A DNA stretch of 64,000 nucleotides. Origin: Fontisphaera persica (GTDB taxonomy: Bacteria; Verrucomicrobiota; Verrucomicrobiia; Limisphaerales; Fontisphaeraceae). Below are positions 17,023 to 32,593 of this stretch, in pieces. Under the pieces are notes generated by a model. That model saw only the letters and a program-made list of their open reading frames with translations, was not told the origin of the DNA and did not search any database. The DNA lies in contig NZ_CP116615.1 of assembly GCF_024832785.1 (NCBI RefSeq), forward strand, positions 496,001 through 560,000, read 5' to 3'. The position numbers and the translations under genes were made by a program. Positions within the stretch are counted from its first letter, which is position 1; every line of letters starts with the position of its first letter.

Positions 17023-17586
17023 ATGGTAAGTGATCTTATCAATTTGCAGGGTGCACTGCCGGAACGGCTGGTGGAACTGATGAGTTTGGGGACTGCTGTC
17101 CACCAACCGTGGAGTGAGGAGGAGTTGGCGGCCATTTTGCAATATCAATTGGCAAGGCCGCTGGAACAAGATTTAGGGCCATTGCCTGCCGCTTTGCGCA
17201 AGGAATTGGGGAAAGTAGAACCTGGCCTGGCCCCCGTAAACGATACTTTTGGCTTTTGGCTGCATCATGCACATCCGCCGGTGGAATTATTGCGGTTGAT
17301 TAAGCAATATGCCAAGTCTTGCCATAAAAATCCCTTGTCTGGCATTCCGCCCAAGGTGGCCTTGGCTTTGTACTACCTGAGTTTGGCAGCAGCCTTGGTG
17401 CGGTGCAAGACGCGGATTACCTCGTTGAGCAATGAGGAGCTGAAGGTGGGGTTTGACCAATTGGCCAATGCCCGCTGGGTGGATGAGCTCAGCCGGGCGG
17501 TTTTTGAGCAAGCCTGGCTATACTTGACAGGCAAGGGGGGTGTCGGCCAGAATCCGACAGCGTGGCCCGAGAGTTACCGTCCATAA
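17023..17586 (+). CDS. Unknown helical protein between sigma factor and kinase
   Basis: I do not recognise this family. The 187-residue protein is probably cytoplasmic (no signal peptide or membrane segment) and mostly helical, with a hydrophobic helix 'KVALALYYLSLAAALVRCKT' around residues 110-130. The start is well set: AAGGAG lies eight bases before the ATG. Its last eight codons overlap the GTG start of the kinase at 17562. Position between sigma factor and kinase suggests an adaptor or a direct partner of one of them; this is inference from context only. Confidence 0.7.
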   Translation: MVSDLINLQGALPERLVELMSLGTAVHQPWSEEELAAILQYQLARPLEQDLGPLPAALRKELGKVEPGLAPVNDTFGFWLHHAHPPVELLRLIKQYAKSCHKNPLSGIPPKVALALYYLSLAAALVRCKTRITSLSNEELKVGFDQLANARWVDELSRAVFEQAWLYLTGKGGVGQNPTAWPESYRP

Positions 17587-20049
17587 CCCCGGCGCTTCAG
17601 TCCTCGCTGCCGGCAGGCATACCCATTTCCCACCTGGCAAACACTCTCACGCTGCTCTCCCAATTGGAGGGGCTGGAGCAGGCCCAATCAGAGTCCATTG
17701 GCCATTTTGGGCCTTTTCAAGTTTTGCGCGCTTTGGGGGAAGGAGGCATGGGTGTGGTGGTGTTGGCCCGAGACACACGTAATGACGCGGTGGTGGCCGT
17801 TAAGGTCTTGAAGCCAAGTCTCCTGCAGTACCCCCTTGCGGTGCAGCGGTTTCTGAGCGAGGCAAACCACATGAGCCGGTTGAAGCATCCGCACATCCTG
17901 CCGGTGTTGGACAGTGGGCGGACGGCGTTGGGTCCGTACTATTCCATGCCGTTCTGTGAAAAGGGGGGGGCTGGCCGGCGAGTTGGCGGGCGGGAAACCG
18001 GCAACGGTTAAGCGTATTTTGGAAGTGCTGATTCCTGTGGCCGAAGCGCTGACGTACGCACATGCCCGCGGGTTGATCCATCGGGACTTAAAACCCGACA
18101 ACATTTTGCTGGCAGAGCAGGGGAAGGTGTATTTATCGGATTTTGGTCTGGCGAGGACGTTGTTCAATGAACGCACGCTGGACGTGGAGGGCAGCCATTG
18201 TGAAGGCACGGCCCCCTATCTATCCCCGGCAGTGGCCCATGGGCAGGCCGAAGATACCCGTTGCGATATTTACTCGCTGGGGGCCATTCTTTACCAAATG
18301 CTCACCGGCCGTCTGCCGTATAGCGGGCGGACAACCGAAGAGGTCATTGCCCAAATCAAGGCCGGCCCGCCGCGTCCCATTCTTGAACTGAATCCCAAGG
18401 CGCCTGCCGAGCTGGTGTTGGTGTGTGAAACGGCAATGGCACGGGATCAGCGCGATCGTTATGCCAACATGGCGGATTTCCTGGAGGATTTGCGGCGCAT
18501 TCAGCGCGGTCAGTTGCCGGTGGGCGCGCATGCGGGCACGGCGTGGGTCAATCGTGCACGGGTGAGTTGGCGGCGGCATTGGCCCAAAATCGTGACGGGC
18601 GCATGTTTGAGTCTGGCAGCTTTGGGCCTCTGGCATACGGGCTGGTTGCGTTCCCCCGTATTAAAACCGATCCAAGTCATCCAGCTTGGGGAAGGATTCG
18701 ATCATTATTCTTCAGTGATGGGGAATTGGGACCTGGATAAAGTGACGGATTTTCTGGTGCTAAATCGGCAGGACAACTCTATTCAGGTCGTGGATGCTAC
18801 AAATAACCGGGTGCAGTTGATTCCTTGCCCAAAGCTGCTGGGTTCGGAGGAACGGGGTGACATTGGTTACTTAACCATGACAAGTTTTTCCACCGATAAA
18901 GCCGATGATTTGATTATTACCTATAGCCAGAAAACTCAGGCCCGGGCCAAAGTCATCAACCCCAATTTGCTCACGGTGGCCGAGTTTACGTACGAGGGTG
19001 AATTCGTACCTGCCAACCGGGAACGAGCGGCTTCAGCCACGGTTTTTATTTCGGGAATGGCCGTGGATTTGGATAACGACCAAAAAAAGGAATTTCTATT
19101 TCATTATGGGACACCTTATGGGCAAAGACGTCCACGCGGGCTGGTTTTGATGGATATGGATGACACGAAAGGGGTGATGCGCTGGGATTTCCCCACTGCC
19201 CCATACATCCGAAAGTTCCTGGTTCAGGATTTGGAGGGAGACGGTAAGCAAGAAATTATTTTTGGGACTCATGCCACCTGTAATGGCAAACAATTGGAGG
19301 ACGGGACCGATGATTTTCATTCGCATCTGGCCGTGCTGAATGCTAATGGGGAATTGCGCTGGCGCCGGACCGTTGGGAAGGAGTACACGGCTGTTGTACC
19401 GTTAATGTGGGAGGCTGGCTCGTCGGCACCGGGACGAATATATGCCTGGCTGTCGGCATCCTATTTAGCCCGTCACAGTTTGCCGCCTGAGGAGCGTGGC
19501 CCGGGAATTGCCAGCCGGATTTTCTACGTGGAGGCCAATGGAGAGGGACTGCGTGAATACCTGCCGCCTTTTGAACTGGTGGATGTGCATCCTGCCGATG
19601 TCACGGGGGATGGGCGCCGGGAACTCGTTATGACGGATACCAATGGGTGGGTGCGCGTGTTGAGTCAGGATTTGCAGGTTATCCGGCAAACTCGATTGGC
19701 GCAGCCACGCCAAATGTTGGCGTACGCGCATGTCCTGGGTAATGTGCGGCTGCCTCAATTGGACGGCGGGCCGTATGTGGCAGTGTTGTGGAAGGACCTG
19801 CATTCAAATTCAGTGGGCGTAGTTGGCAAAACGCATCGAGAATTCAGCAATGATAATATCATGCATGAGGTGACGGCAATGGTGTTGGACCGACGGCTCC
19901 AGCCGGTTTTCCGTGCGGTGCTTCATCCCACTCTCAAGGAACGTCTCAGCAATATCCGGGGCGAAGTCAAGGATGTGGACGGCGACGGTGCCGAGGAAAT
20001 CGTTGTATTTTCCGAACGCATCACCATTTGCAAAGTGGTCAAGGAGTGA
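17562..20049 (+). pseudogene. Transmembrane Ser/Thr kinase with FG-GAP-like sensor domain, frame broken at a G8 tract
   Basis: Two reading frames together make one kinase. The first (17562-18011, GTG start) carries the glycine loop 'LGEGGMGVVVLA' (~57-68) and the Lys in 'AVKVLKP'. It drifts out of frame after 'PFCEKGG'. The second continues 'LAGELAGGKP', 'HRDLKPDN' (~172), 'DFGLAR' and 'CDIYSLGAILYQML' to 20049. The break coincides with eight Gs at 17963-17970; seven Gs would restore an uninterrupted protein of about 828 residues. After the kinase domain comes one membrane segment (~338-361, 'IVTGACLSLAALGLW'). The outer part has repeated Asp-rich loops ('DLDNDQKKEF', 'DLEGDGKQEI', 'DVTGDGRREL', 'DVDGDGAEEI') typical of FG-GAP/VCBS propellers. 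Called broken as sequenced; sequencing error and slippage are both possible. Confidence 0.8.
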
Positions 20050-20105: not shown

Positions 20106-23100
20106 TCATTTTTGGGCTTTGGGCCGCAGGCCATAAAGGGCCGCCAACGCGAGGAACAGGCCGGTCAACAAGGTGACGCCACCCGTGGCCGTTTGGGGGT
20201 CGGCGGCCTTGGCCTTGAGCGCAACTTTCAGTGTGGCCCATTCATCCACCACCAAAGCGCCGGTGAATTGATAAGGCCGGCCTTGCAAGGGCAGGGCGGC
20301 GCGAATGCTTTCCGGCTTGGTCACACCGGCGATTTGCTGCCGCAGCATGCGTTCAGCCAGGCGTTGGAGGGCGGCGTTTTCATCGGGGGTGTTTCGCTCC
20401 AGGACTTGTTGCGCCTGCTGTTGCGTGTATTGCGGAGCCTGGCCGGGTTCGACGCGGCCCAGGACGTTGCGGGCGCGCCCCTCTTTGCGTTCGGCGATGT
20501 CGAGGGCGTTTTGGCGGCGCTCGTTCAAGCCCAGCAAGGTTTGCTGGAGGCGCACATTATTCCATTGCACGCGCGCATCTTCATTGAAGGCGGCATCCTG
20601 GGGGGAGATGTTCCAAGCTGCTTGGAAGGCGCGCTGGGCTTGTTGGGGCGCGCCCTGTTGCAGCATGGTGTTGGCCATGGAGAAGAGCTGCTCGGCGGTT
20701 TTGACTTTTTCTTCGCGGCGGGCCATTTCTGATTTGAGGTAATCATCCACATTGATGCCGGTGGGCCAGAGGGGCGTGCCGACGCTGCGCATTTGGAGGG
20801 CGCTTTGCCAGTTCTGGATGTCCCAGTTGGCGGGGGTGTAGATATTCCAGGTCACATTTTCCAAGGGCAGGTCGAAGGAGGGCGCGAGCATTTCACGACG
20901 GGCCAGGTTGCCGTCCTCGCCCGTACCAGCCGTGTAGAAGAATTCCAACGTGGTGGGCTGGTTAGGCTCGCTGTGTTTCTCCAACAGAAAAAGGATTTGG
21001 CCGCCTTCGCGCCAGGGCCAGACGCTCTGGCCGTTGATGAAGGCGTACCAGAAGCGGCTGCCAGCGGGAAGTTTCATACGCAGCAGGCGTTTGTCACCGG
21101 GGCGAAGCACCAGGCGGCCTTCGGTCAACATCTGGCCGGAGGGGGCAATTACGGAAGTGAGCGTCAGGCTTTCCACCTGAGCGGGGAGGACGTTGGCCAC
21201 CTCATGACGGGAGAGGGTGATGGGCAGTTCAAAGCCGCTGTCCATGACCACGAAGCAGTCCTTGCTTTCGGTCATGCCGGCGCTGCGGCGGAGAGTCGGA
21301 GGAAGCGCCTGCCACTCCACCGGTTGAAGACCGGCGGGCTGGGCAGGGAGACGGATTTGCAGGCGGCCGCTGCCCTGCACGGCCAGGTAGCCGCGCTGTA
21401 GGTTGGCAGAAGGTGTTCTGACCCCGGCAAGGCGCATTCCGGCCGTTTGATTGGTGAGGGGCATTTGGTAGCTGAGGCGCAGGGTGTAATTGCCGATGAC
21501 GCGGCGTTGCAGTTTGACTTCCCACGTCTGCCAGCGGGCCTCGCCGGGGGCGGGCAGCCGCATGGCATCCGAGAACAGGTCGCCTTCAAAGCGGACATTA
21601 TCGGCTGGATGGGGCACCAGGATTTGGAGATTTTTCACTCCGGCATTGTCTATGCGATATTCGAGGGCGGCGATGACCTGGGCCTGGCCTTCACGCAGGG
21701 TACAGTGTTGCAGCACGGCGGCCTCCACCCAAGGCTCAACAGCCTCTACATCGAACACCAGGCGCCATTGATTTTGCAGGAGCGCAAAGGCCAAACCACC
21801 CTTTTGGGTCAGGCCGGCGCGGCGCGGGTCCACGGGGTTGACGCCGTCGCGCTCGCGGGCGTGCAGGCGCAGCCCTTGTTCCGGGATGACCAGCAACTGT
21901 CCCGTCTGGCGGGTGGCCTCTCGCACCCAAACGCGCGGTGCGGTCCATTCTTTGCGGCGGGCCAGGCCCGGACCGCCGAGCGTGAGGTTGAAATTGTGGC
22001 GGCCTTCCGTCTTGCCGCGCAGGTGAAGGGTGATGATGCGTTCACCGGCCGCCCGCAGCTCCGTCCAATGACTTAAGATGGGGCTGGTGACATTTTCCAA
22101 ATCAAAATCCGCCGGCAGGGTGAAGCTTAGCCGGAAAATACCGGCGCGGGTGATGTCCACCGTCCATTGCAGGGCGAGCACGGCGCGGTCTTCGCCCAGG
22201 GAATGGGTTTCTTGCGTGGCCACCCGGATGTCCGGCTGAACGGGGGCTGCGGCAAGAGTAATCTGAGCGTCTCCGGCTGAATAGCGATAAGCCCGGCGCA
22301 GCGTCAGCCCTGACATCCACTGACTGGCCTCCTTCAACAGGGCGGCGGAATAATCTTCCAGGTTGATGGGGGCCAGTCCCTGAACCTTGGCGGTTTCCTG
22401 GAGCTGTACTTCCTGGCCGGTGGCCACGCCCAGAGTGCCCAACTGGCCGGCGGTGTTTTGTAACAACGGCACGCGGGCGGTAATTTCATACGGCAAGGCC
22501 CCAGCGGGAATTTGTGAAAACATCCACATTTGAAACGCCTGGGCCTGGGGCGTTTGGAAGACAGCACGCAGGAGGCGGCTGTCGGGGTCGAAGCGCCAAT
22601 GAGCCAGTCCCTGGGCGCGCACATCGGTTACGGTTTGATTGGTGGGAATCAACACCGTGACTTCGGTGATTTGTCCTTGGGCGGGTTTAAGCTGAAAGAG
22701 ATGCACGCCTTCCAGCAGGCCAGGGGTGGGCACATAAAGGTGGTGCAGTTCGGCGTAGAGGACGGCGGTTTCCCGGCGCGGGTCGCGCGAGCGCGGCACC
22801 CAGTTGATTCTGGCAGACGGCCGGGGGGCCAGCACCACTTCAGCGCGGGAAAGCTCCTTTCCTTCCTGTTGCACCACGGCCACCTCGACGGAGACCGCTT
22901 CGCTGGAAATCACGCTCAGGTCGGGGCGATCCAAATCCAAGGTTAACCGGTTCACCAGCGCGGGGCAGGTGGGCAGCGCGAAATGGCCGCTGGCTGCCTC
23001 GCGGGTGACGCGCAACTGGTACTCAAATTCCACTTCAAACTTGCCTCCAGTTTTTGCGGTCAGCCGGTAGCCTCCTCCGAGGGGGTTCTGGCTTAGTACG

Positions 23101-26100
23101 AGATTTTCGGCAGGCAGTTGGATTTGGGTCAGGACTGCAGGAGCGGATAAAAAGTCCAGCCGTTCACCGGCTTCGGTTTGCCAGATTAATCGGGCGCGAG
23201 CGCGCAAAAATTCATCCTGCACCTGCAGTTGTTGGATGACGCTTTGCACCACGCTGCGGGTGGGTTCGGCGGGAGCGGCGTGGGCCGTGGCGGTCGCCGT
23301 GACCAGCAGTCCGGCCAGCCATAAAGCGGTGGCTGCTCCCGGCGCCGGGTTGGAGGAGCCGGCCGGCGCGGCCGGCGGCTCAGGTTTGGGGGCAGGGGGG
23401 AGTTGCTGGATGGCTCGCCAGGCGGGGAACCATAATTGGGTCAGGGCAAAGAGCGCCAAAATGCCAAAGAACCACGGCGCGCCCCCCGGCATGCGCAAGG
23501 CGGCCCATGCCAGCAGGGCCCAGCCAGCCATACGAGCGGCGCTGCCCCCCCAGTGAGACCATTGCTTAACGGCGGCCAACACCCACAGCGCCACAGCCAG
23601 GAGCGCTGGCCACGCATATTTGGCGTAAAACATAACATCTCCCGCCGCCCATTGGGTGACTTGCAGCGAAAGTGTCTGGCCCGGGTCTTGAATGGGAGCG
23701 ATGAACACCATTTCATGGGGATTGTCGGAGCCAGGGGTGAGCGAAACCCAGGCCAACAGGGCCAGCAAAGCCAGGGTGCCCAAGGCAATCAGAATGCCAG
23801 CGGCCTGGGCGGTGATTTGGGCGAGGCTGCCGCGGGTGGCGCCGGGCCGCGCGGCGTGACGGAAACACAAGACACTGCCCACCAGCAACACGGGCAGCAA
23901 CAGCAGAGCCAGCGTTCGGCGGTGCCACGAGAAGCCCCCCTTGAAATGCTGAGCAATCCAATGCCAGCCGCCAGGCTCCTGCCATGCGCCGGTGGGTACG
24001 ACACGCCCGCTTTGAAAACGCAGCCGCGTGCCGGCGTCGCCCTGCAATCGCCACTCGGTTTGCAACACCGGCGCCTCAATGACGGGCGCTTCCAAAACCA
24101 GGCGCCGCCGGTCGCCGGCCTTGGCCGCGAGCTTTAATTCCACGGTCAAGACGGCCAACGGGTCGGTTTTGGAGGGCAGGGGAATCAGGGTGGACGGACC
24201 ATCGCTGACGGGTGCAGTCATGTTTTGGTTCACCCGCGCCTCCCATAATTTGTAACCGGCTGGAATTTTAACGCGCAGGTGGGCATGCCCCTGGTTCTTG
24301 ACGAAATAACGGGCGGTGGTGGCGAGTTCGCCCTCGCGGGTGATGCGCGTTTGCAGGACGGCGCGGTCGGCCACCTGCCGCATGGTTTCGCCGGGCGGCA
24401 GCGAGGCCAGCTCGAGGCGCAAAACAAAAGGCCGGGCGGTGTATTGATAAGCGGCCAGCAGCGGGGCATCAAACAACAGGCGGTGCTCTGGAGGGATTTC
24501 CCGCGGGTCCAATTTCAGGAGCGGCGGAGAGACTTCGGCGGGGCGGGCCTCAAAGGCGTGCTCACTGATGACCAGCACGCTGCCTTGCTCGGTTTGGGCG
24601 TCCAGCGGGCGCGCGCCCTCAAATTCAACCAGGTTGTTGGTGCGGGGGTGGAATTGGCGGTCGCAGGTGACCAGCAGAGTGTACGCGCCAAAGGCCGGAG
24701 TGTTGAGATACACCTCATAACCGCCCTCGACAGGTTTCCAGTTGCGCACATCGCGGCCGGCAAATTCCACGTTGCCGTAGTTGGTGGGAGCGGCGACGCG
24801 GAACTGGTTGATGGGCGCGCCGCCCACCCAGTAGTTGATGACGGAGCTGCAATAAGCGATGCCCTCCTTCAAGGTGAACAAGTGCACCACGTCCGCGAGC
24901 ACGGTCTGGGTCAGGCGTTCGACTTGCACGGTGGCCTGCCAGGTCTCATCGCGCAATCGCCATGCCAGTTGCAGGCCGGCAATCTTGCGGGGGAAAAAGC
25001 CGGGGGCCAGCTCGGTCAAACCGGCGACTTCCCCGGCGGTGAGACGAAAGCCGGTATCAGCGGAGACGCCGAGATGCAGGCGGAGCGACTTGATGCCGAG
25101 GGGGTGCACGAGGGGAAGGGACCAGGCGCCAGGCATGGCGTTGGTGTTTTTGCTGAGGCGCAATTGCACCACCTGCCGGCCCGTGAGGGGCTGGGCAAAC
25201 ACCAGCCGCAGGCGGGACAGGTTGGTATTGGGCTCGGGGGTTAAAAAGTAATCACTCAGGCTTTGGGCGTTGACCCGCGGATTGGTGAAATCCGCGGGCG
25301 TGCGGATGGTGAACTCGCGCAGAGGAGCGTCCCGGATGTCCAATTCCAACTCGGCATCAATGGTGGTTTCGGTTTCGCCCAGATGGTAAACGAGCAGTTG
25401 GGACACGTTGACCTCCGGCTGCACTTGTTCGGCCTGCAAGCTCAGGGTGTAATCCGGGCCGCTGAAGCGGTAGGCAAACATTTGGGTGCCCTGGCTCAAG
25501 CCGGCTTGGGAAATGGCCTCCCGCTGGGGCACCATTTCCGGTGAAATTTGGGAAAGGCCGCGGGTTTCGGTGGCTTCGAGACGTACGGCGCCGTCATTCA
25601 TGGCCACGAGGTAACCGGAGTAGCGGATGGCTTCCTCCGGCGTGAGCCGCAACGGTGTGACTGCCACCGGGAAAGCCCCCAGCGGAGTTTGCAAAAGCAC
25701 TTGCATCCGATACTGGTCTTTGCGGGGCTGATTGAGCTGCACCACAAGCCGCCGCAAACCATTGGAGGAAGGGATGACCCGCCAGGCCAGGATGTCATCG
25801 CCACGCACATGGGTCACTTCCCCATCACCTTGGAGGGCCAGTGAAAGTTGCGTTAATTCTCCCTGCATGACTTTGTAGTTCAACAAACAGGCCTGGCGCA
25901 GAAGGCCGGGACCAACGCTTAAACCCACCTGGCCTTCCACGGCGTAGAACAGCCGTCCGCGTTCTTCTTTGCGGGCGGTGCGCCATTGCCATTGCAAGGG
26001 CCCGCTGGAGGCCAGGAAGGTGACATAGTCGTCGCCCTGCTTTTCGGGGCGGGCGGCGTTGCCCAGGTTGAACAACGTCTCTGCGGGCAGCCCTTTGAGG

Positions 26101-27140
26101 GTGACCGGACGCAGGGCGCTGGGGGCCAACTCAAAGGCCACGCTATTCCATTCATTTTGCGTGGTCACGCGCGCATCAAAAGTGAGCGAGAGAGGATAAG
26201 TGCCCGGCCGCCGGAAGCGCAGCCAGTAGCGGCCGTCCGCAAAATAAACTTCGGCGTTGGTGGGAAAACTGGTCAAGGCGGCGTCACCGGCCAGCAGGGC
26301 GAGGGCTCCGCCCTCCGCATGGCGCACGAGGGCTTCGGCACGCAGGGTAAAGGACGCGCGCTGTTCTTTCATCATGCCCGTGAGCTGAAATTGATTCAGC
26401 GTGATTTGGCGGCCTTCGGGGTCTTTTTCCATGGCCCGGACTTGCAGGGCATAATCGCCGCCGGTCCAGCGCAACAGGAAGGGTTGGGTGGCATCCAGGG
26501 GCGAGGCGGTGCCTGTGCCTGTGGCGGGCGATTTTTGCACGAGCAAAAACCCTGATAGGTTGGTGAGTGAAAGTTCCAATGCCGGGTCCGGCACGATTTC
26601 CAGCGTGCCTTCGGCAAAGGCGGCTTCGTGCGGTTGCAGCACCAGCGGGGTGAAGTCCAGGGGCAGGGAAGCGAAGGCATGCCGGGCAATCACACTGGCG
26701 GACAATTCCCGCGGCGGCGGCTGGTTGGTAGCGGCGTCGGCGGGCCGGATGACCAGATAGAGCTGGCCGGCGGCATCGCGCCGTAATGCCCAATCTTTGA
26801 TGCCGGGTCCGGAGACCTGTTCAATGTTGCCGTGCCCACGGCAGCGCAGAATCCATTCCTTGAATTGCCCTTGCAGCACGCGGGCGCGTAATTCAAATCG
26901 CTGGAGGATGTTGGTTTTTTCAAAGTGCACGCCGGCCTGCCAGGTGGCGGAGTAAATGAGGGGCACTTCAGATTCTGGCGGGCCGCCACCCTTCAGGCGT
27001 CCCGTGAGAATAAAACTGGCCTGGTTGGTATCCACCTCCCCGCTGAACTTGAGGCTTTCCACGGGGGTGGCGGTGAAGGCCATCCCGCTGCTGCCAAGCA
27101 GGATGGCGGCCATCTGGAGACTGCGAATGATCCCTTTCAT
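20106..27140 (-). CDS. Giant (2344-residue) multi-beta-module membrane protein of unknown function
   Basis: No family is recognised. A signal peptide (residues 1-24) is followed by ~1040 residues of predicted beta modules. Five or more hydrophobic segments follow between ~1070 and ~1287 ('TLALLLLPVLLVGSVLCF', 'ILIALGTLALLALLAW', 'ALLAVALWVLAA', 'WFFGILALFALTQLW', 'ALWLAGLLVTATATAHA'). A second beta-rich half follows, then a helical TPR-like stretch (~2130-2220, 'QQAQRAFQAAWNISPQ') and a C-terminal membrane segment ('LLTGLFLALAALYGL'). Modules recur: 'FAYRFSGPDYTLSLQ' (~552) resembles 'RAYRYSAGDAQITLA' (~1614), and 'LRVKIPAGYKLWEARVN' (~957) resembles 'LRMKLPAGSRFWYAFIN' (~2018). It is the last gene of the sigma-vWA operon (54-bp gap) and convergent with the kinase. 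Confidence 0.85.
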   Translation of the reverse strand: MKGIIRSLQMAAILLGSSGMAFTATPVESLKFSGEVDTNQASFILTGRLKGGGPPESEVPLIYSATWQAGVHFEKTNILQRFELRARVLQGQFKEWILRCRGHGNIEQVSGPGIKDWALRRDAAGQLYLVIRPADAATNQPPPRELSASVIARHAFASLPLDFTPLVLQPHEAAFAEGTLEIVPDPALELSLTNLSGFLLVQKSPATGTGTASPLDATQPFLLRWTGGDYALQVRAMEKDPEGRQITLNQFQLTGMMKEQRASFTLRAEALVRHAEGGALALLAGDAALTSFPTNAEVYFADGRYWLRFRRPGTYPLSLTFDARVTTQNEWNSVAFELAPSALRPVTLKGLPAETLFNLGNAARPEKQGDDYVTFLASSGPLQWQWRTARKEERGRLFYAVEGQVGLSVGPGLLRQACLLNYKVMQGELTQLSLALQGDGEVTHVRGDDILAWRVIPSSNGLRRLVVQLNQPRKDQYRMQVLLQTPLGAFPVAVTPLRLTPEEAIRYSGYLVAMNDGAVRLEATETRGLSQISPEMVPQREAISQAGLSQGTQMFAYRFSGPDYTLSLQAEQVQPEVNVSQLLVYHLGETETTIDAELELDIRDAPLREFTIRTPADFTNPRVNAQSLSDYFLTPEPNTNLSRLRLVFAQPLTGRQVVQLRLSKNTNAMPGAWSLPLVHPLGIKSLRLHLGVSADTGFRLTAGEVAGLTELAPGFFPRKIAGLQLAWRLRDETWQATVQVERLTQTVLADVVHLFTLKEGIAYCSSVINYWVGGAPINQFRVAAPTNYGNVEFAGRDVRNWKPVEGGYEVYLNTPAFGAYTLLVTCDRQFHPRTNNLVEFEGARPLDAQTEQGSVLVISEHAFEARPAEVSPPLLKLDPREIPPEHRLLFDAPLLAAYQYTARPFVLRLELASLPPGETMRQVADRAVLQTRITREGELATTARYFVKNQGHAHLRVKIPAGYKLWEARVNQNMTAPVSDGPSTLIPLPSKTDPLAVLTVELKLAAKAGDRRRLVLEAPVIEAPVLQTEWRLQGDAGTRLRFQSGRVVPTGAWQEPGGWHWIAQHFKGGFSWHRRTLALLLLPVLLVGSVLCFRHAARPGATRGSLAQITAQAAGILIALGTLALLALLAWVSLTPGSDNPHEMVFIAPIQDPGQTLSLQVTQWAAGDVMFYAKYAWPALLAVALWVLAAVKQWSHWGGSAARMAGWALLAWAALRMPGGAPWFFGILALFALTQLWFPAWRAIQQLPPAPKPEPPAAPAGSSNPAPGAATALWLAGLLVTATATAHAAPAEPTRSVVQSVIQQLQVQDEFLRARARLIWQTEAGERLDFLSAPAVLTQIQLPAENLVLSQNPLGGGYRLTAKTGGKFEVEFEYQLRVTREAASGHFALPTCPALVNRLTLDLDRPDLSVISSEAVSVEVAVVQQEGKELSRAEVVLAPRPSARINWVPRSRDPRRETAVLYAELHHLYVPTPGLLEGVHLFQLKPAQGQITEVTVLIPTNQTVTDVRAQGLAHWRFDPDSRLLRAVFQTPQAQAFQMWMFSQIPAGALPYEITARVPLLQNTAGQLGTLGVATGQEVQLQETAKVQGLAPINLEDYSAALLKEASQWMSGLTLRRAYRYSAGDAQITLAAAPVQPDIRVATQETHSLGEDRAVLALQWTVDITRAGIFRLSFTLPADFDLENVTSPILSHWTELRAAGERIITLHLRGKTEGRHNFNLTLGGPGLARRKEWTAPRVWVREATRQTGQLLVIPEQGLRLHARERDGVNPVDPRRAGLTQKGGLAFALLQNQWRLVFDVEAVEPWVEAAVLQHCTLREGQAQVIAALEYRIDNAGVKNLQILVPHPADNVRFEGDLFSDAMRLPAPGEARWQTWEVKLQRRVIGNYTLRLSYQMPLTNQTAGMRLAGVRTPSANLQRGYLAVQGSGRLQIRLPAQPAGLQPVEWQALPPTLRRSAGMTESKDCFVVMDSGFELPITLSRHEVANVLPAQVESLTLTSVIAPSGQMLTEGRLVLRPGDKRLLRMKLPAGSRFWYAFINGQSVWPWREGGQILFLLEKHSEPNQPTTLEFFYTAGTGEDGNLARREMLAPSFDLPLENVTWNIYTPANWDIQNWQSALQMRSVGTPLWPTGINVDDYLKSEMARREEKVKTAEQLFSMANTMLQQGAPQQAQRAFQAAWNISPQDAAFNEDARVQWNNVRLQQTLLGLNERRQNALDIAERKEGRARNVLGRVEPGQAPQYTQQQAQQVLERNTPDENAALQRLAERMLRQQIAGVTKPESIRAALPLQGRPYQFTGALVVDEWATLKVALKAKAADPQTATGGVTLLTGLFLALAALYGLRPKAQK

Positions 27141-27194
27141 ACCATTATTTTCAAATTAAACCGACTGCCGGGGCTGCGATGGCCATCGAGCACT

Positions 27195-30100
27195 TTATTG
27201 CACTCCTTCGAGTCGCATGGCCTGTTGCAGCATGGTCAACAATTGTTGCGGGCGTGGGTCTGGCTCGAAAGCCTTCACGGCACTGCCGGCAATGGCGGCC
27301 AGAACCTTGAGTTGGACTTCGCCGGCATAAGGATTGCGCGAGAGATATTCGCCCAACAAGGCGGCGCTGGCGGCCAAACGCATGGCGGGAGAGGCCTGCG
27401 CCAGCGGGGGGGGCTGCGGGGTGTAGGGCAAAATCCATTCCCGCTCCTCGTATTGACCGGTGGCCGGGACGCGATAGCGCACGCGCACCACGCCCAGGGG
27501 GCCGCTGCCTTGGGCGTTGACCTGAACCGCGTACATGGCGTTGCCAGCCTCGGCAGCGGCCAGCTCGGCGGCATCCACGGTATTGTCACGGAATTGTTCC
27601 TTGGTGAGCTGATGGCGCGCATAGCCTATTTGGCGGTAGGCGGTGACGCGGTAGGGATTGAACTCGACTTGAGTTTTGACATCGGCGGCGGCCACATTCA
27701 ATGCGCCGGCCAATTTTTCGGCAAACTCAGCCGCCGCCTGCTCGACCTCGTTGAGCAGCGCATAGCGGCCGTCTCCGTTGCGGGAGAGCACTTCCAGTAG
27801 GTCATCGTCCAAACCTTCCCAACCCACGCCGAAGCAGTCCAGCGCCACGCCTCGCTGGCGGTGTTGGATGACTTTTTGCCGGAGTATCTCGGGGTCCACG
27901 TCGCCCAGGTTGGCGGCGCCATCGGTGAGGAGGAGCACGCGATTGTTGGCGCTGGGATGAAAATGTTTCAGGGCGGTTTGGTAGGCCAGGTCCAGGCCGG
28001 CGCCGAGGTCCGTGCCGCCCTCGGGGTTGAGGCGCAGCACTTGTTGGATGGCCTCTTTCGCGCGCTGGCCAGGCTGGCCATCCACGCAGAGCTGGGCACG
28101 GCGGGCAAAGGCCACCACGCTAATCTTATCCTGGGGATGCAATTTGCCGGCCAGTACCTGCAAGGCCTGGCTCACGATGGCCACACGGTCCGGGCGGCCC
28201 ATGGAGCCGGAGTTGTCCACCAGCAGTACGAGGTTAAGCGGTTGCGCGGCCTGGCGGCCGAGGGCGGCGGTTTGGATGGAGAAACGCACCAAATCGCGCT
28301 GATGAGCGAAAGGATGACGAGCTATTTCCCAGTTGAAGGCAACCCGTGCGCCGGGGGCGGGAGCGGGGTCCCGGTAATTGAGGGCGTTAATGAACTCTTC
28401 GACGCGAATGGAATTGGGGTCAGGCCATTGGCCGGCCTGCAGGCTGGCGGCGGCGGTTTTGAAGGAAACATCACTGACGTTCAGTGAAAACGTGCTGAAG
28501 TTGACCACGCTGTTGGGCGCGGTTTGCACTTCCATGGGATGAATCAGCGGAGGCAGGGAAGCTCCGGCTTTGCGTTTGTCCAAGGTTTCTTCTCCGGCTG
28601 GTTGAATGGCAGCGACGGGTGGCGGGGGAGCCATCGGGACGGGCGTGGCTTTGGCTTCGGCGCCAGAGGCGGGCTTCTTGGCTGCTTCGAGGCGTTCCAA
28701 TAGGACTTCTTTTTCGGCTGTGGCGGCGGATTCTTCCAGTTTTCTGGCGGGAGTGGGAGTTGTGGGGGGGGGTGTCGCAGCACCAACACCACCGGCGGCG
28801 AACTTGAGGCCGCTGGGCTGGGGCATTTGGGCTGACTGACGGGCCAAGCGCTCCAATTCGCGGGTGCCGTCCTGTTCGGATAACCGTTTGAGTGTGGTTT
28901 CGCTGGCCGAGGGCGCCCTGTAATAAGAGCGGAATTCCTGAAGTTGCACCCCCGCGGACTCCGGTTCCTTGGGCAGGCGGCCTGCCGCCTCTGCCACATT
29001 GGCATTGAGGGTGAAGCCAAGGCTGGGAGATTCTTTCCAGAATTGCTCCGTTGCTTCTGTTTGGGACTTGCCCAAGTTGACTGTGCCGTAAGCAAAATTT
29101 TGTTGTGGGAGGTTGGTCACCCAATCCTCGCTCTGGACTGACTGACGTTGCAAATTATCCACGGAGTCAAAGGCCATGCCGATGTTGGCCGAGCCGTCGG
29201 CGCGTCCGTTGCCCAATGCCTGCCCGCCCGCCAAGCCCAGGCCGGTGAGTTGGGAAATGGGCGTTTCGGCTGGCGCTGCCGGGGTTGCTGCTGGCGGGCC
29301 AGCAAGGCGGTTGGCGGCGGCCAGACCATTGACACTTTCGTTTTTGGCGGCGTCTTTCAGGTCACGCGTTACTAGAGCGGGCGTGGATGGGCCAGGGGCA
29401 GGAGAGTTGACGGGGCGCCCCAACCTGCCTCCGAAACCCTCGTTTTCCCATGGAGAAACTGCATAGGTGTCGTGAAAAGTGGTGGGCGGGGGAGTGTTGA
29501 TGAAGGACTCGTCGGTCAACACCGCGAGTTTATCGCCCAGTGTTTTATTGCGGTCCATGTCACCTGGCTTTGCGGGAAGCGGCGCCTCTGCAGTGGCCGG
29601 CGGAAGATAGATATTTTGAGCGAAGCGAGCCGTGATGGGCGCGTCGGTTGGTGGAGCGGCGGTTTGAGATGCAACCGCGCCGGCAAGGGTGCGGCGACGT
29701 CCTTGCCATCCATCTGGCTGGGCACCCGGGCTGGGGGCGAAGGCATCGTCCTCCTTGCGGGATTCTTTAGCGAGCCTTTTCTCCAATTCGGCCATTTTTT
29801 GCCGATTCAGTTCAGCTACCCTGAGTGACCTTGCCTTGGCGGGGGCCAAGGCGGGCAACGTCAGTGACCATAGCAATGCCAGCAGGGCCACTACCGCAGC
29901 GAGTTTGATGGCCCAATGCCATGAGGGGCCGATGGGTTGGCGCATCCTGCTCCAAATGCCACGTGCGCGGGTGGAGCGGGTGGCTTCGGGGAGATTGGCT
30001 CGCCGGGCAGGGGCTGCTTGCGGGGGGGCAGGGGTTGGTGCGGAAGCCGGCGGGCTTTGCAACGCGGCCAGCAATGCGGCGCGGCGGGTGGGGGACAGTT

Positions 30101-30350
30101 TTGGGGTATTCGCAGGCGTCGCAGTCCCGGCTTGGGGAGTTGGTTGGTCGGTGGCGGACTTGGGACGCGCAACTTCGCGCAGCAATCCTACCGTTTTCTG
30201 CATGTCACGATAAAATGCCCCCAGTTCCGGGTCCTGCTCGATGAGACGCAGCAATTGCGCTTCTTCAAAGGGGCTGGCTTCGCCCAGCAGCAGGGCTACG
30301 ACGCGCGCCTCCAAGTCGGTGCGCGGGTCCATGGGCAATTCAGGTTTCAT
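27195..30350 (-). CDS. Transmembrane anti-sigma-like / YfbK-type von Willebrand A fusion protein
   Basis: The 1051-residue protein has three parts. Residues 1-60 are a small helical cytoplasmic domain ('EARVVALLLGEASPFEEAQL') like the N-termini of membrane anti-sigma factors, but without a zinc motif. One membrane segment lies at ~142-163 ('IKLAAVVALLALLWSLTL'). A long Ala/Pro-rich linker leads to a YfbK-like region: 'NFSTFSLNVSDVSFKTAA', a vWA domain (~705-880) with a complete MIDAS site ('DNSGSMG', 'GGTDLG', 'LTDGAAN'), and a DUF3520-like C-terminus ('VEFNPYRVTAYRQIGY'). The start overlaps the sigma factor stop by four bases. The layout suggests an anti-sigma factor that senses through a metal-dependent ligand-binding domain outside the membrane; this is inference. 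Confidence 0.85.
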   Translation of the reverse strand: MKPELPMDPRTDLEARVVALLLGEASPFEEAQLLRLIEQDPELGAFYRDMQKTVGLLREVARPKSATDQPTPQAGTATPANTPKLSPTRRAALLAALQSPPASAPTPAPPQAAPARRANLPEATRSTRARGIWSRMRQPIGPSWHWAIKLAAVVALLALLWSLTLPALAPAKARSLRVAELNRQKMAELEKRLAKESRKEDDAFAPSPGAQPDGWQGRRRTLAGAVASQTAAPPTDAPITARFAQNIYLPPATAEAPLPAKPGDMDRNKTLGDKLAVLTDESFINTPPPTTFHDTYAVSPWENEGFGGRLGRPVNSPAPGPSTPALVTRDLKDAAKNESVNGLAAANRLAGPPAATPAAPAETPISQLTGLGLAGGQALGNGRADGSANIGMAFDSVDNLQRQSVQSEDWVTNLPQQNFAYGTVNLGKSQTEATEQFWKESPSLGFTLNANVAEAAGRLPKEPESAGVQLQEFRSYYRAPSASETTLKRLSEQDGTRELERLARQSAQMPQPSGLKFAAGGVGAATPPPTTPTPARKLEESAATAEKEVLLERLEAAKKPASGAEAKATPVPMAPPPPVAAIQPAGEETLDKRKAGASLPPLIHPMEVQTAPNSVVNFSTFSLNVSDVSFKTAAASLQAGQWPDPNSIRVEEFINALNYRDPAPAPGARVAFNWEIARHPFAHQRDLVRFSIQTAALGRQAAQPLNLVLLVDNSGSMGRPDRVAIVSQALQVLAGKLHPQDKISVVAFARRAQLCVDGQPGQRAKEAIQQVLRLNPEGGTDLGAGLDLAYQTALKHFHPSANNRVLLLTDGAANLGDVDPEILRQKVIQHRQRGVALDCFGVGWEGLDDDLLEVLSRNGDGRYALLNEVEQAAAEFAEKLAGALNVAAADVKTQVEFNPYRVTAYRQIGYARHQLTKEQFRDNTVDAAELAAAEAGNAMYAVQVNAQGSGPLGVVRVRYRVPATGQYEEREWILPYTPQPPPLAQASPAMRLAASAALLGEYLSRNPYAGEVQLKVLAAIAGSAVKAFEPDPRPQQLLTMLQQAMRLEGVQ

Positions 30351-30889
30351 AGCACACCGGTTTGTTTGAGAGCGGACGCCAAATCTTTGAGGGCGTGGTG
30401 CAGGAGGTATCCCACATGCCCCACATTCAGATTCAGGCGCGCGCCGATTTCCTTGTAAGAAAGCCCCTCTTCAAATTTGAGCCGGAGCACCTCGCGTTGC
30501 CGCGCATTCAGGGTGGCCAGACAGAGGCGGGTTTGGCCAATGGCCTCCAGCCGAGCCAGGTGTTCGTCGGGCATGGGGGTGTCATCGGCCACATCCCATT
30601 CCGGGTCGTCTCCCCCGGCTGGTTGCAGCGGGGCCAGTTTTTGGGAAGCCCGCACATGGTTGACCGCCAGATTGTGTACCGTGCGGTACAGCCACGGAAC
30701 GGGCTGGCGGACCTGTGCATATTCGCGGTGCAATCGCATAAAAGCTTCCTGGACGACGTCTTCGGCGGCTCCGGCATCGCCGGTGAGCCGCTGGGCATAC
30801 AGGAGCAAGGCCGATTCTTTGGCCTCAAACAACGCCTGCAAAGTCTCCCCCGCCCCGGCGGCCGGGCTGCCTGTGGTGTTGTCCTGCAT
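30347..30889 (-). CDS. ECF-type RNA polymerase sigma factor
   Basis: A 180-residue sigma-70 family protein of the ECF type. Region 2 is clear ('YAQRLTGDAGAAEDVVQEAFMRL' split around 'AEDVVQEAF', then 'PVPWLYRTVHNLAVNHVRA'). Region 4 shows 'LNARQREVLRLKFEEGLSYK' and 'EIGARLNLNVGHVGYLLHHA', a classic helix-turn-helix. Its stop (30347-30349) overlaps the ATG of the anti-sigma/vWA gene, so the two products are probably made in balance. No standard sigma70 promoter was recognised in the 150-bp gap 30890-31039, which is compatible with self-regulation by the ECF factor. Confidence 0.93.
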   Translation of the reverse strand: MQDNTTGSPAAGAGETLQALFEAKESALLLYAQRLTGDAGAAEDVVQEAFMRLHREYAQVRQPVPWLYRTVHNLAVNHVRASQKLAPLQPAGGDDPEWDVADDTPMPDEHLARLEAIGQTRLCLATLNARQREVLRLKFEEGLSYKEIGARLNLNVGHVGYLLHHALKDLASALKQTGVL

Positions 30890-31039
30890 GGGCTCGTTAA
30901 CGCGTTTGCCAGCTATAGGTATGACAGGCCAATGGCCGTTTTATTAGCATAATTTTTGCCACAGTTGCATTGGACGGAAGAGAAAGGCGCTGGCTCCCAC
31001 TAAAAACAATCAAGAAAACCGGTCAAACCCTGCTTGTGA

Positions 31040-32593
31040 ATGACGGCTGACCGGTATAGACTGGCGGTTGTGAAAATCCGCGGCTGGGCATCGGCCTTGG
31101 TGTTGGGCTTTATTGGCTTTGGCGCGAGTCTGAGTGCGCTGGCCGCCGACTGGCCCACGTTGCACGGCAATCCCCAGCGTCATGGCTATTATGCGGAGTT
31201 TCCCGCCCATCCGTTGCGCCTGGTTTGGCGCAAGGAGCTGTACCGCGAGCTAACTGGCCCGCGGGCGGAGGTCATTGTGGGCGGCGGGTTGGCCTATATG
31301 GGCACTTATGCGGGAAATTTTTACGCATGGGACGCGGTCACCGGGGAAGAACGCTGGAAATTTCAGGCGGGCGGCCCGATTGGGCATTCGCCCATGTACG
31401 ACGCCGGGAAAGTTTATGTGGCCTCCATGGACCGGCGATTGTATGCCTTGGACGCCGCCAACGGACGTCGGTTGTGGGCGTTTGAAGCGGAGGAAGGATT
31501 TTGGAGCGCGCCACTGGTTCACCAAGGCAAAGTCTTTTGCGGCGCGCGGGATGGCTGGTTTTACGCGGTGAACGCTGCGGACGGCACGCTGGCGTGGAAA
31601 CAGCGCACGGGGGCGCCCATTCTGAACAGCCCCAGTCTGACCGAGGACGGCCAGCGGGTGGTGGTGGTGTCGGAGGATATGCATGTGTATTGCTGGCAGG
31701 TGGCCGATGGGCGGCTGGCGTGGCGCTCGCGCAAACTGGCGGGGCTGACGGCGCGCGATTATTTCCCGGTGGTGTTTCGCGGACTCATTTTTGTGACGAC
31801 TACGCCGGTCAAAGATTTTCACACCATCCTTGGGGAAAACGAGCAGATGCTGGTCCGGCGCGCGGGATTTGCCGGCAAGGATCCGCGATACATTCCGGGG
31901 ACGCCCGAGGACGTGGAGCGTGAACAGGCGTTTATCGTGGAGCATCTGCGGAAACATCCGGAGGAGCAGGTTTTTTACGCGCTGCGCGCCAGCGATGGCG
32001 AGGAAGCCTGGGTGGCGCCGATTTTATACACCGGCGGTCTGCATAACCCGCTCACGCCGCCCTGCGTGAATCCGGAGACTGGCGAAGTGTTCACGCAGTT
32101 GCGTTCGGCGTATGGCACCTGGGACGGTGGCGGCGAGGTGCGGTCCTACACCTGTTTTGGCAAAATCAATCTGGCCAATGGCCGGGTGACGTTGGTTCAG
32201 CATGGTTATCCTTCCCGCGAGGTGGGACGCCCGCCGGGGGCCAAGGACATGCCGTGGATGTGTTTCAATTACATTGGCGATGAGACGCAAACCTTGTCTT
32301 GCGCGCCGGGGCGGTTGTTCAGCAACCATCAAGGTTTCCTGGGCGAGCTGAACTTGCTCACGGGCATGGTTCGTAATTTTTACGGCAAGCGCGATACTTA
32401 TGGCGGCTTTTATGGGGCGGGCAACTTCGGGTGGGAGAATCAAGGGGGCTACGAAAAAGCCCGCGCTGCCGGCCAGCCTTATGGGCTGGTGAATGAATGG
32501 CACGGCCCGGCGCGGGCCATCGTGTCGGTGGCCGGGGGGCGCGTGTTTTTTCCGGTGGGTTCACAAGTGCTGTGTCTGGAGGCGACCCCATGA
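31040..32593 (+). CDS. Secreted PQQ-like beta-propeller protein
   Basis: The 517-residue protein has a signal-peptide-like segment (~residues 14-35, 'ASALVLGFIGFGASLSALAA'). Repeats of the PQQ/BamB type follow: 'NFYAWDAVTGEERWKF', 'RLYALDAANGRRLWAF', 'WFYAVNAADGTLAWKQ', 'HVYCWQVADGRLAWRS', which is characteristic of an eight-bladed propeller. No PQQ ligand residues or cytochrome motif were identified, so it is more likely a binding or scaffold protein than a dehydrogenase. A GTG at 31070 is a possible later start. It is translationally coupled (ATGA) to the next gene, suggesting a joint function. Confidence 0.85.
   Translation: MTADRYRLAVVKIRGWASALVLGFIGFGASLSALAADWPTLHGNPQRHGYYAEFPAHPLRLVWRKELYRELTGPRAEVIVGGGLAYMGTYAGNFYAWDAVTGEERWKFQAGGPIGHSPMYDAGKVYVASMDRRLYALDAANGRRLWAFEAEEGFWSAPLVHQGKVFCGARDGWFYAVNAADGTLAWKQRTGAPILNSPSLTEDGQRVVVVSEDMHVYCWQVADGRLAWRSRKLAGLTARDYFPVVFRGLIFVTTTPVKDFHTILGENEQMLVRRAGFAGKDPRYIPGTPEDVEREQAFIVEHLRKHPEEQVFYALRASDGEEAWVAPILYTGGLHNPLTPPCVNPETGEVFTQLRSAYGTWDGGGEVRSYTCFGKINLANGRVTLVQHGYPSREVGRPPGAKDMPWMCFNYIGDETQTLSCAPGRLFSNHQGFLGELNLLTGMVRNFYGKRDTYGGFYGAGNFGWENQGGYEKARAAGQPYGLVNEWHGPARAIVSVAGGRVFFPVGSQVLCLEATP

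Follow-up and report, generated by a model that had tools for sequence, protein, structure and literature searches.

A candidate autoregulated envelope signalling operon in Fontisphaera persica: an ECF sigma factor, a vWA-type anti-sigma factor and a giant membrane protein

We describe three adjacent genes of Fontisphaera persica whose products, an ECF sigma factor, a vWA-type anti-sigma factor and a giant membrane protein, are best explained, with rather better than even probability in our judgement, as the parts of one self-contained and autoregulated envelope signalling operon. Five features computed directly carry this reading: the gene order, the homology of the anti-sigma domain, the conservation of the promoter across the class, the near-uniqueness of that strong promoter, and an internal duplication in the giant protein. 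In the circuit that we propose, the vWA protein would hold the sigma factor at the inner membrane through its anti-sigma domain. Its long linker and YfbK-type module would lie in the periplasm beside the giant protein, whose anchor would sit in the inner membrane and whose two large beta lobes would likewise be periplasmic. If either the vWA module or the giant protein changed state, the sigma factor would be freed and would start transcription of the operon that encodes it at a single dedicated promoter, yielding more sigma factor, anti-sigma factor and giant protein. Release would raise all three, so that the giant protein would be the likely sensor partner as well as the main product, and a homeostatic loop would keep an envelope component in balance. 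The steps that we infer are the binding of sigma factor and anti-sigma factor, autoregulation, co-transcription of the giant gene, the contact between the vWA module and the giant protein, and the direction of the signal.

The features are listed in Table 1 by their positions in the window, by which we mean the whole analysed stretch of 64,000 nucleotides. The ORF coordinates agree with the first-pass annotation, which had described three genes on one strand with a 4-base overlap and a 54 bp gap: the sigma and vWA genes share 4 bases (30347-30350), and 54 bases (27141-27194) separate the vWA stop codon from the giant start codon. No terminator-like minus-strand site was found in this 54-base gap, and the giant gene would be co-transcribed with the sigma-vWA pair; a scan of the whole window returned no Rfam family at gathering score. 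A single contig of 4,726,914 bases makes up the genome, in which the giant protein has one match. The operon promoter lies in a divergent gap of 150 bases (30890-31039), on the other side of which stands a gene for a PQQ/BamB-like beta-propeller protein (31040-32593). Elsewhere in the window, on the plus strand, a kinase gene (17562-20049) seems split across two frames; its product would be of the Ser/Thr type and end in an FG-GAP/propeller-like part. The N-lobe lies in 17562-18011 and the remainder in 17914-20049, which appears to be a frameshift or a sequencing error.

Table 1. Predicted features of the operon, by position in the window
Feature	Position	Strand	Basis or detail
Predicted ECF promoter	30920-30947	(-)	-35 CTAATAA 30947-30941; -10 TGTCATA 30926-30920
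ECF sigma factor gene, 180 aa	30347-30889	(-)	Sigma70_r2, Sigma70_r4_2, NCBIfam sigma70-ECF
vWA protein gene (predicted membrane anti-sigma, periplasmic YfbK-type vWA module), 1051 aa	27195-30350	(-)	ORF, Pfam, AlphaFold model
Anti-sigma domain core, residues 9-61	30168-30326	(-)	AlphaFold model, PDB matches to anti-sigma domains
Single transmembrane helix of vWA protein	29847-29903	(-)	Residues 150-168 by hydropathy; 144-164 in AlphaFold model
vWF_A 616-689, VWA with MIDAS 706-865, YfbK_C 883-945	27516-28505	(-)	Pfam
Giant membrane protein gene, 2344 aa	20106-27140	(-)	ORF, hydropathy, profiles
Giant first lobe, residues 240-1070	23931-26423	(-)	hhalign against second lobe
Giant second lobe, residues 1290-2240	20421-23273	(-)	hhalign, predicted structure
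Giant last domain, residues 1984-2311	20208-21191	(-)	M1-aminopeptidase-N-domain-like fold with inserted helices

The AlphaFold model of the vWA protein N-terminus contains helices at residues 9-21, 27-39 and 41-61, then a fourth at 87-98, and the protein has the architecture of a membrane anti-sigma factor (ASD), a cytoplasmic helical domain followed by one transmembrane helix. Fold matches of this model in the PDB include RskA, RsiW, MucA, RslA, ChrR and PupR. The best PDB rows from Foldseek are anti-sigma domains, but at E 0.2 or worse, and in a VIA comparison the first six rows are anti-sigma domains (Z 5.1-6.2) and the next is an unrelated retron entry (Z 5.0); values near 5-6 are common among helical bundles, as the tool itself warns, and the fold match alone is insufficient. 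Modest by itself, the fold becomes convincing for an anti-sigma domain together with homology to zf-HC2, which matched 23 of 55 orthologous vWA N-termini aligned over the same stretch; the window's own N-terminus gave no zf-HC2 match. The anti-sigma-like N-terminus of the first-pass annotation is thus upheld by the orthologues as well as by matches to solved anti-sigma domains, and we would expect it to bind and inhibit the sigma factor. Like the zinc anti-sigma factors (zf-HC2; RsiW, RslA, ChrR), the window protein has three helices and a fourth before the membrane, although its ectodomain is a vWA module. The CxxC of zf-HC2 factors is kept by vWA orthologues outside the class (22/22 loci) and is absent within it (0/33), giving 22 of 55 N-termini in all; judged from these alignments, the window's class has lost the zinc ligands of the domain. 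A zinc anti-sigma factor (ZAS) in the window itself was ruled out, as the CxxC ligands are absent.

Between the transmembrane helix and the vWA module, residues 170-600 are weakly conserved. Pfam families above cut-off in the vWA protein are vWF_A, VWA, VWA_2, VWA_3 and YfbK_C, and the presence of PF12450, VWA and PF12034 places it in the YfbK type. The order vWF_A, VWA, YfbK_C is that of known YfbK-type vWA proteins (PF12450, PF12034), to which the window protein adds an anti-sigma domain, one transmembrane helix and a weakly conserved linker of about 430 residues; furthermore, the vWF_A match in trio loci begins only at model position 11-21. The MIDAS comprises D712, S714, S716, T780 and D810, with D/S/S/D retained in 53-54 of 55 rows and the threonine in 46, being replaced in the other 9. 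Hydropathy, Pfam and residue conservation are therefore in accord with the single membrane span and the YfbK-type vWA domain with complete MIDAS that had been described at first pass. As also proposed there, the MIDAS may bind the giant protein, and a change in that contact may free the sigma factor.

One form of the best explanation is that the giant protein protects the anti-sigma factor by keeping it resistant to proteases, such that a lost or damaged giant protein would lead to anti-sigma proteolysis and release of the sigma factor. This would follow the same gene logic as FoxA and FoxR, where the partner FoxA is reported to protect the anti-sigma factor FoxR from proteolysis (PMC11637429). 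The weakly conserved residues 170-600 could provide the cleavage zone, and no strong promoter site above control was seen outside the operon; none of the three genes encodes a protease, which weighs on the other side, and we entertain this form only tentatively.

The giant protein matches no Pfam family up to E 1, no NCBIfam family near cut-off, and nothing on plasmids. Hydropathy places transmembrane helices at residues 1075-1093, 1116-1134, 1173-1191 and 2317-2338, to which inspection by eye added a signal peptide and more helices in the region of about 1205-1290. There is thus a transmembrane bundle between the two lobes, and the chain ends in a hydrophobic helix, a C-terminal membrane anchor. 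The two lobes are homologous (hhalign with 42 sequences: 801 columns, probability 100, E 9.4e-92), and the giant protein is therefore a duplicated beta array, which emerged through profiles, as BLASTP of the protein against itself returned the full self-match only. The first-pass annotation was right about the 2344 residues and the multi-span middle, and its 'repeated beta modules' understated this internal duplication. The loop charges alternate (+3, -4, +2, with +3 in the C-terminal tail), which fits a probable periplasmic location of the two lobes, and together with the transmembrane helices these charges point to an inner-membrane protein. No match was found to the TonB/plug families of Pfam.

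The predicted structure of the second half of the giant protein (41 sequences; mean pLDDT 85.2, pTM 0.42) is confident inside domains and not for domain packing. In this model the last domain resembles the N-domain of the M1 aminopeptidase 1z1w (Z 13.8, rmsd 2.8, 150 residues), and the last domain with the preceding domain and the membrane helix resembles yeast Ost1, 8agb_E (Z 15.5, rmsd 17.5, 346 residues); the rest of this long model was barely probed by the comparison. The Ost1 domains whose structures are solved are themselves similar to M1 N-domains. The last domain is like Ost1/ribophorin I and the M1 N-domain in fold, without a match to the Ost1 or M1 families in Pfam or PDB sequences, and the shared fold shows no function for the giant protein. 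M1 peptidase activity was ruled out, with neither HExxH nor GxMEN present. Foldseek also gives integrin alpha chains, which we read as a generic beta arrangement in the model. The most conserved 40-residue block (residues 2161-2200; mean 0.63 over 42 sequences) lies in the inserted helices of the last domain and has a profile match to TPR units; against PDB sequences the giant protein matched only TPR units and a few weak helical entries.

The three genes are conserved together over a wide range. Within the order, the giant protein has a match in 36 of 58 genomes, counting that of the window, and these were split by identity to the window protein into close giants of at least 33% (26 genomes) and distant giants of about 25% only (10 genomes), with 4 of the 26 close-giant genomes also holding a distant one. 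The vWA gene stands directly upstream of the close giant, on the same strand, in 22 of 26 genomes, the other four being cut by contig ends (G032, G044, G045, G055), and the sigma gene precedes it in 19 of these 22 loci, the contig ending first in 3; in L069 the vWA reading frame is broken. The vWA and giant genes are separated by 60 bases or fewer in 16 of these loci, overlap by start call in 2 and lie 353-470 bases apart in 3; the one locus without a value (G013) has just the first residues of the giant protein on its contig. Across a draw of 288 genomes from the phylum, the giant protein was matched in 56, six of them by small partial matches that were set aside (G061, G123, G140, G243, G274, G291). 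Beyond these and the window's own genome there remained 49, and the upstream region was examined in 46 (G254, G270 and G302 omitted): the vWA gene lies upstream on the same strand in 38, is missing in 5 (G163, G171, G181, G206, G232), and the locus is cut in 3 (G143, G175, G332). The sigma gene precedes vWA in 36 of the 38, the other two (L101, L107) being cut. About 1-3 kb lies between vWA and giant in four of the 38 (L080, L086, L089, L111), which counts against the best explanation. In total, 60 loci from many families (22 in the order, 38 elsewhere) have vWA upstream of the giant gene on the same strand; one more trio, on the named contig L031, lies beyond this count. With start codons picked by rule, the 4-base overlap of sigma and vWA genes recurs at 38 of 56 junctions; not counted among the 56 are a second vWA row in L069, where the frame is broken, and one in L092, a tandem copy. 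G036 (L067) has tandem sigma-vWA pairs and G216 (L092) two consecutive vWA genes ahead of the giant gene; in G229, a stand-alone copy of the giant's C-terminal helical/membrane part (profile 2105-2337; L148, 2277-2978, minus strand) sits about 8.4 kb downstream of the full giant gene.

That the giant protein travels with the sigma-vWA pair thus holds for close giants (22/26 in the order, 38/46 in the phylum) and fails for a divergent clade and for four loci without an adjacent pair. No vWA gene accompanies the 14 distant giants of the order in the sequence at hand, which for four of them extends 1.2 kb or less upstream. Together with the giant of G181 they form one clade with support 1.0, 15 of the 62 giants in a midpoint-rooted tree (where L034, L045, L046, L129 and L147 carry the label 'edge'). 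Besides this clade there are four unpaired loci, in G163, G171, G206 and G232: L140/L141 (G232, G206) and L139 (G171) are separate branches, and L129 (G163), with 1.7 kb upstream that lacks vWA, was counted as unpaired. In view of this clade and these four loci, the giant protein can work without the pair. Three of the 14 distant giants (L056, L063, L065) adjoin a divergent gene for another ECF sigma factor, which matches PF07638 in L056 and L063 and is seen through the trio sigma profile only in L065; after it comes a membrane-protein-like gene, with similar N-termini in the three and no Pfam match in L056 and L063.

Pairs also occur without the giant gene. All seven fetched giant-free YfbK-type loci of the order (L132-L138) have, like the trio, a homologous ECF sigma gene directly upstream of vWA, with no giant gene within 9-13 kb; an anti-sigma-like N-terminus and a transmembrane helix were judged by eye. 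The vWA part has matches in 151 plasmid records, and among 5 inspected the sigma gene is directly upstream of vWA in 2 (Rhizobium binae, Ruegeria), downstream in Vibrio, 2 kb away on the opposite strand in Streptomyces, and none is listed in Nostoc. The pair is therefore not specific to the trio and the giant is an added part; of the linked trio described at first pass, what stands is that close giants keep the pair. The giant-free sigmas form a clade (support 0.98) from which the trio sigmas are separate. The -35 of L132-L138 is that of the trio, but TGTC occurs at the -10 in 0/7 and CGT[TG] (CGTT or CGTG) in 7/7; this last pattern also fits inside CGTGTC, and its trio matches (6/23 in the order, 7/11 in the rest of the class) are not independent. 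The difference in the -10 offers a natural experiment on the specificity of sigma region 2.

These data bear directly on a plainer anti-sigma system, in which the MIDAS would sense an external ligand and the giant protein would be an operon effector that never contacts the vWA protein. As giant-free pairs and unpaired giants both occur, neither needs the other, just as such a system would have it. Its difficulty lies in the gene order, retained in 60 loci of many families, and in the trio sigmas, whose separate lineages and other -10 suggest specialised pairing with the giant protein; we consider it rather improbable, while taking it seriously.

The sigma protein matches PF04542, PF08281 and TIGR02937 above cut-offs, has sigma regions 2 and 4 only, as is typical of the ECF type, and may belong to an ECF group described earlier. 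Left out at first pass was the promoter before the sigma gene, whose motif we found in 30 of 34 class loci. The site in the window has the form CTAATAA-N14-TGTCATA (28 bases), with the sigma start codon 30 bases beyond it. Of the regions upstream of sigma genes, 20 of 23 in the order (mean of 200 shuffles 0.045) and 10 of 11 in the rest of the class (0.02) carry the motif C[TC]AA[GT][AG]A, 13 bases, then [GTC][TC]GTC, compared with just 5 of 25 loci outside the class (0.07), and the spacing is 13 in 29 of the 30 class loci with the motif. The 23 order regions take in both L067 pairs and the named contig L031, assumed to be a class member; for L095 only one sigma row was kept, as the other has the same site, and start codons followed the same rule as for the junctions. 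We conclude that the sigma factor very probably controls its own operon.

The pattern CTAAKRAN{13,15}TGTCDTA has one match in the window's own genome (G000) and one in its congener G001, both at the trio operon; with one mismatch allowed there are 2 sites in G000 against 6 in the reversed control, and 2 against 4 in G001. Over 12 genomes, TCTAAKRAN{13,15}GTGTC gave 9 matches, 7 of them at the trio, with 8 in the reversed control, so the two non-trio exact matches (in G002 and G051) are at background level. These two sites precede ORFs with a secreted look, judged by eye. Searched by pattern in G000, G001 and the 12 genomes, a wider sigma regulon thus gave nothing above control, and these patterns reveal no other strong target. 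A stress-response sigma factor with a wide regulon, for which the operon promoter would be the strongest site only, draws some support from the two extra exact sites and from the nature of such searches, which catch strong sites and could let weaker ECF regulon sites escape; the concentration of exact matches at the trio itself, and the failure of a mismatch to add anything above control, make it unlikely. That the genes are chance neighbours, as the separate occurrence of pair and giant might suggest, deserves almost no credence given a gene order retained across the phylum.

In its logic the operon is closest to the FecI-FecR-FecA and FoxI-FoxR-FoxA cell-surface signalling systems, in which an ECF sigma factor and a one-span anti-sigma factor are likewise joined by a large beta-rich envelope partner that is also a product of the system, but there are key differences. 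In those systems the partner is a TonB receptor, whereas the giant protein has transmembrane helices and matches no TonB receptor in Pfam. The ectodomain of the anti-sigma factor is formed here by a vWA module, and the promoter motif directly precedes the gene for the sigma factor, while autoregulation is absent for fecIR according to PMC9249621. This last difference counts against our reading, as do the unpaired giants and giant-free pairs, the scarcity of the promoter form outside the class, the two exact matches away from the trio, the weaker sites that ECF regulons can use, the replaced MIDAS threonine and the low Foldseek significance of the anti-sigma fold. A literature search of open papers returned no description of this operon by title or abstract start. 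The available part of PMC8103513 has no mention of vWA, YfbK or Verrucomicrobi, and that of PMC12826043 reports that in Azospirillum an ECF sigma factor regulates a vWA gene cluster, and tells of no anti-sigma fusion.

In conclusion, every kind of component in this operon is already known except the giant protein, which represents a family without a Pfam entry in 56 of 288 phylum genomes (six by small partial matches). To our knowledge, there are few worked examples of ECF signalling in Verrucomicrobiota. Here the sigma factor, anti-sigma factor, partner and promoter are all predicted at one place, with giant-free pairs as a natural contrast, and vWA-domain sensing in bacteria therefore becomes directly testable. 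A more specific version of our proposal, for now a speculative one that we would not yet favour, is that the giant protein, in the inner membrane and with beta lobes of Ost1/M1-N-domain-like fold, is monitored by the vWA-type anti-sigma factor and that the sigma factor exists only to set the giant protein's amount. If true, this would be an undescribed phylum-wide circuit in which a sigma regulon of one operon acts as an envelope thermostat.
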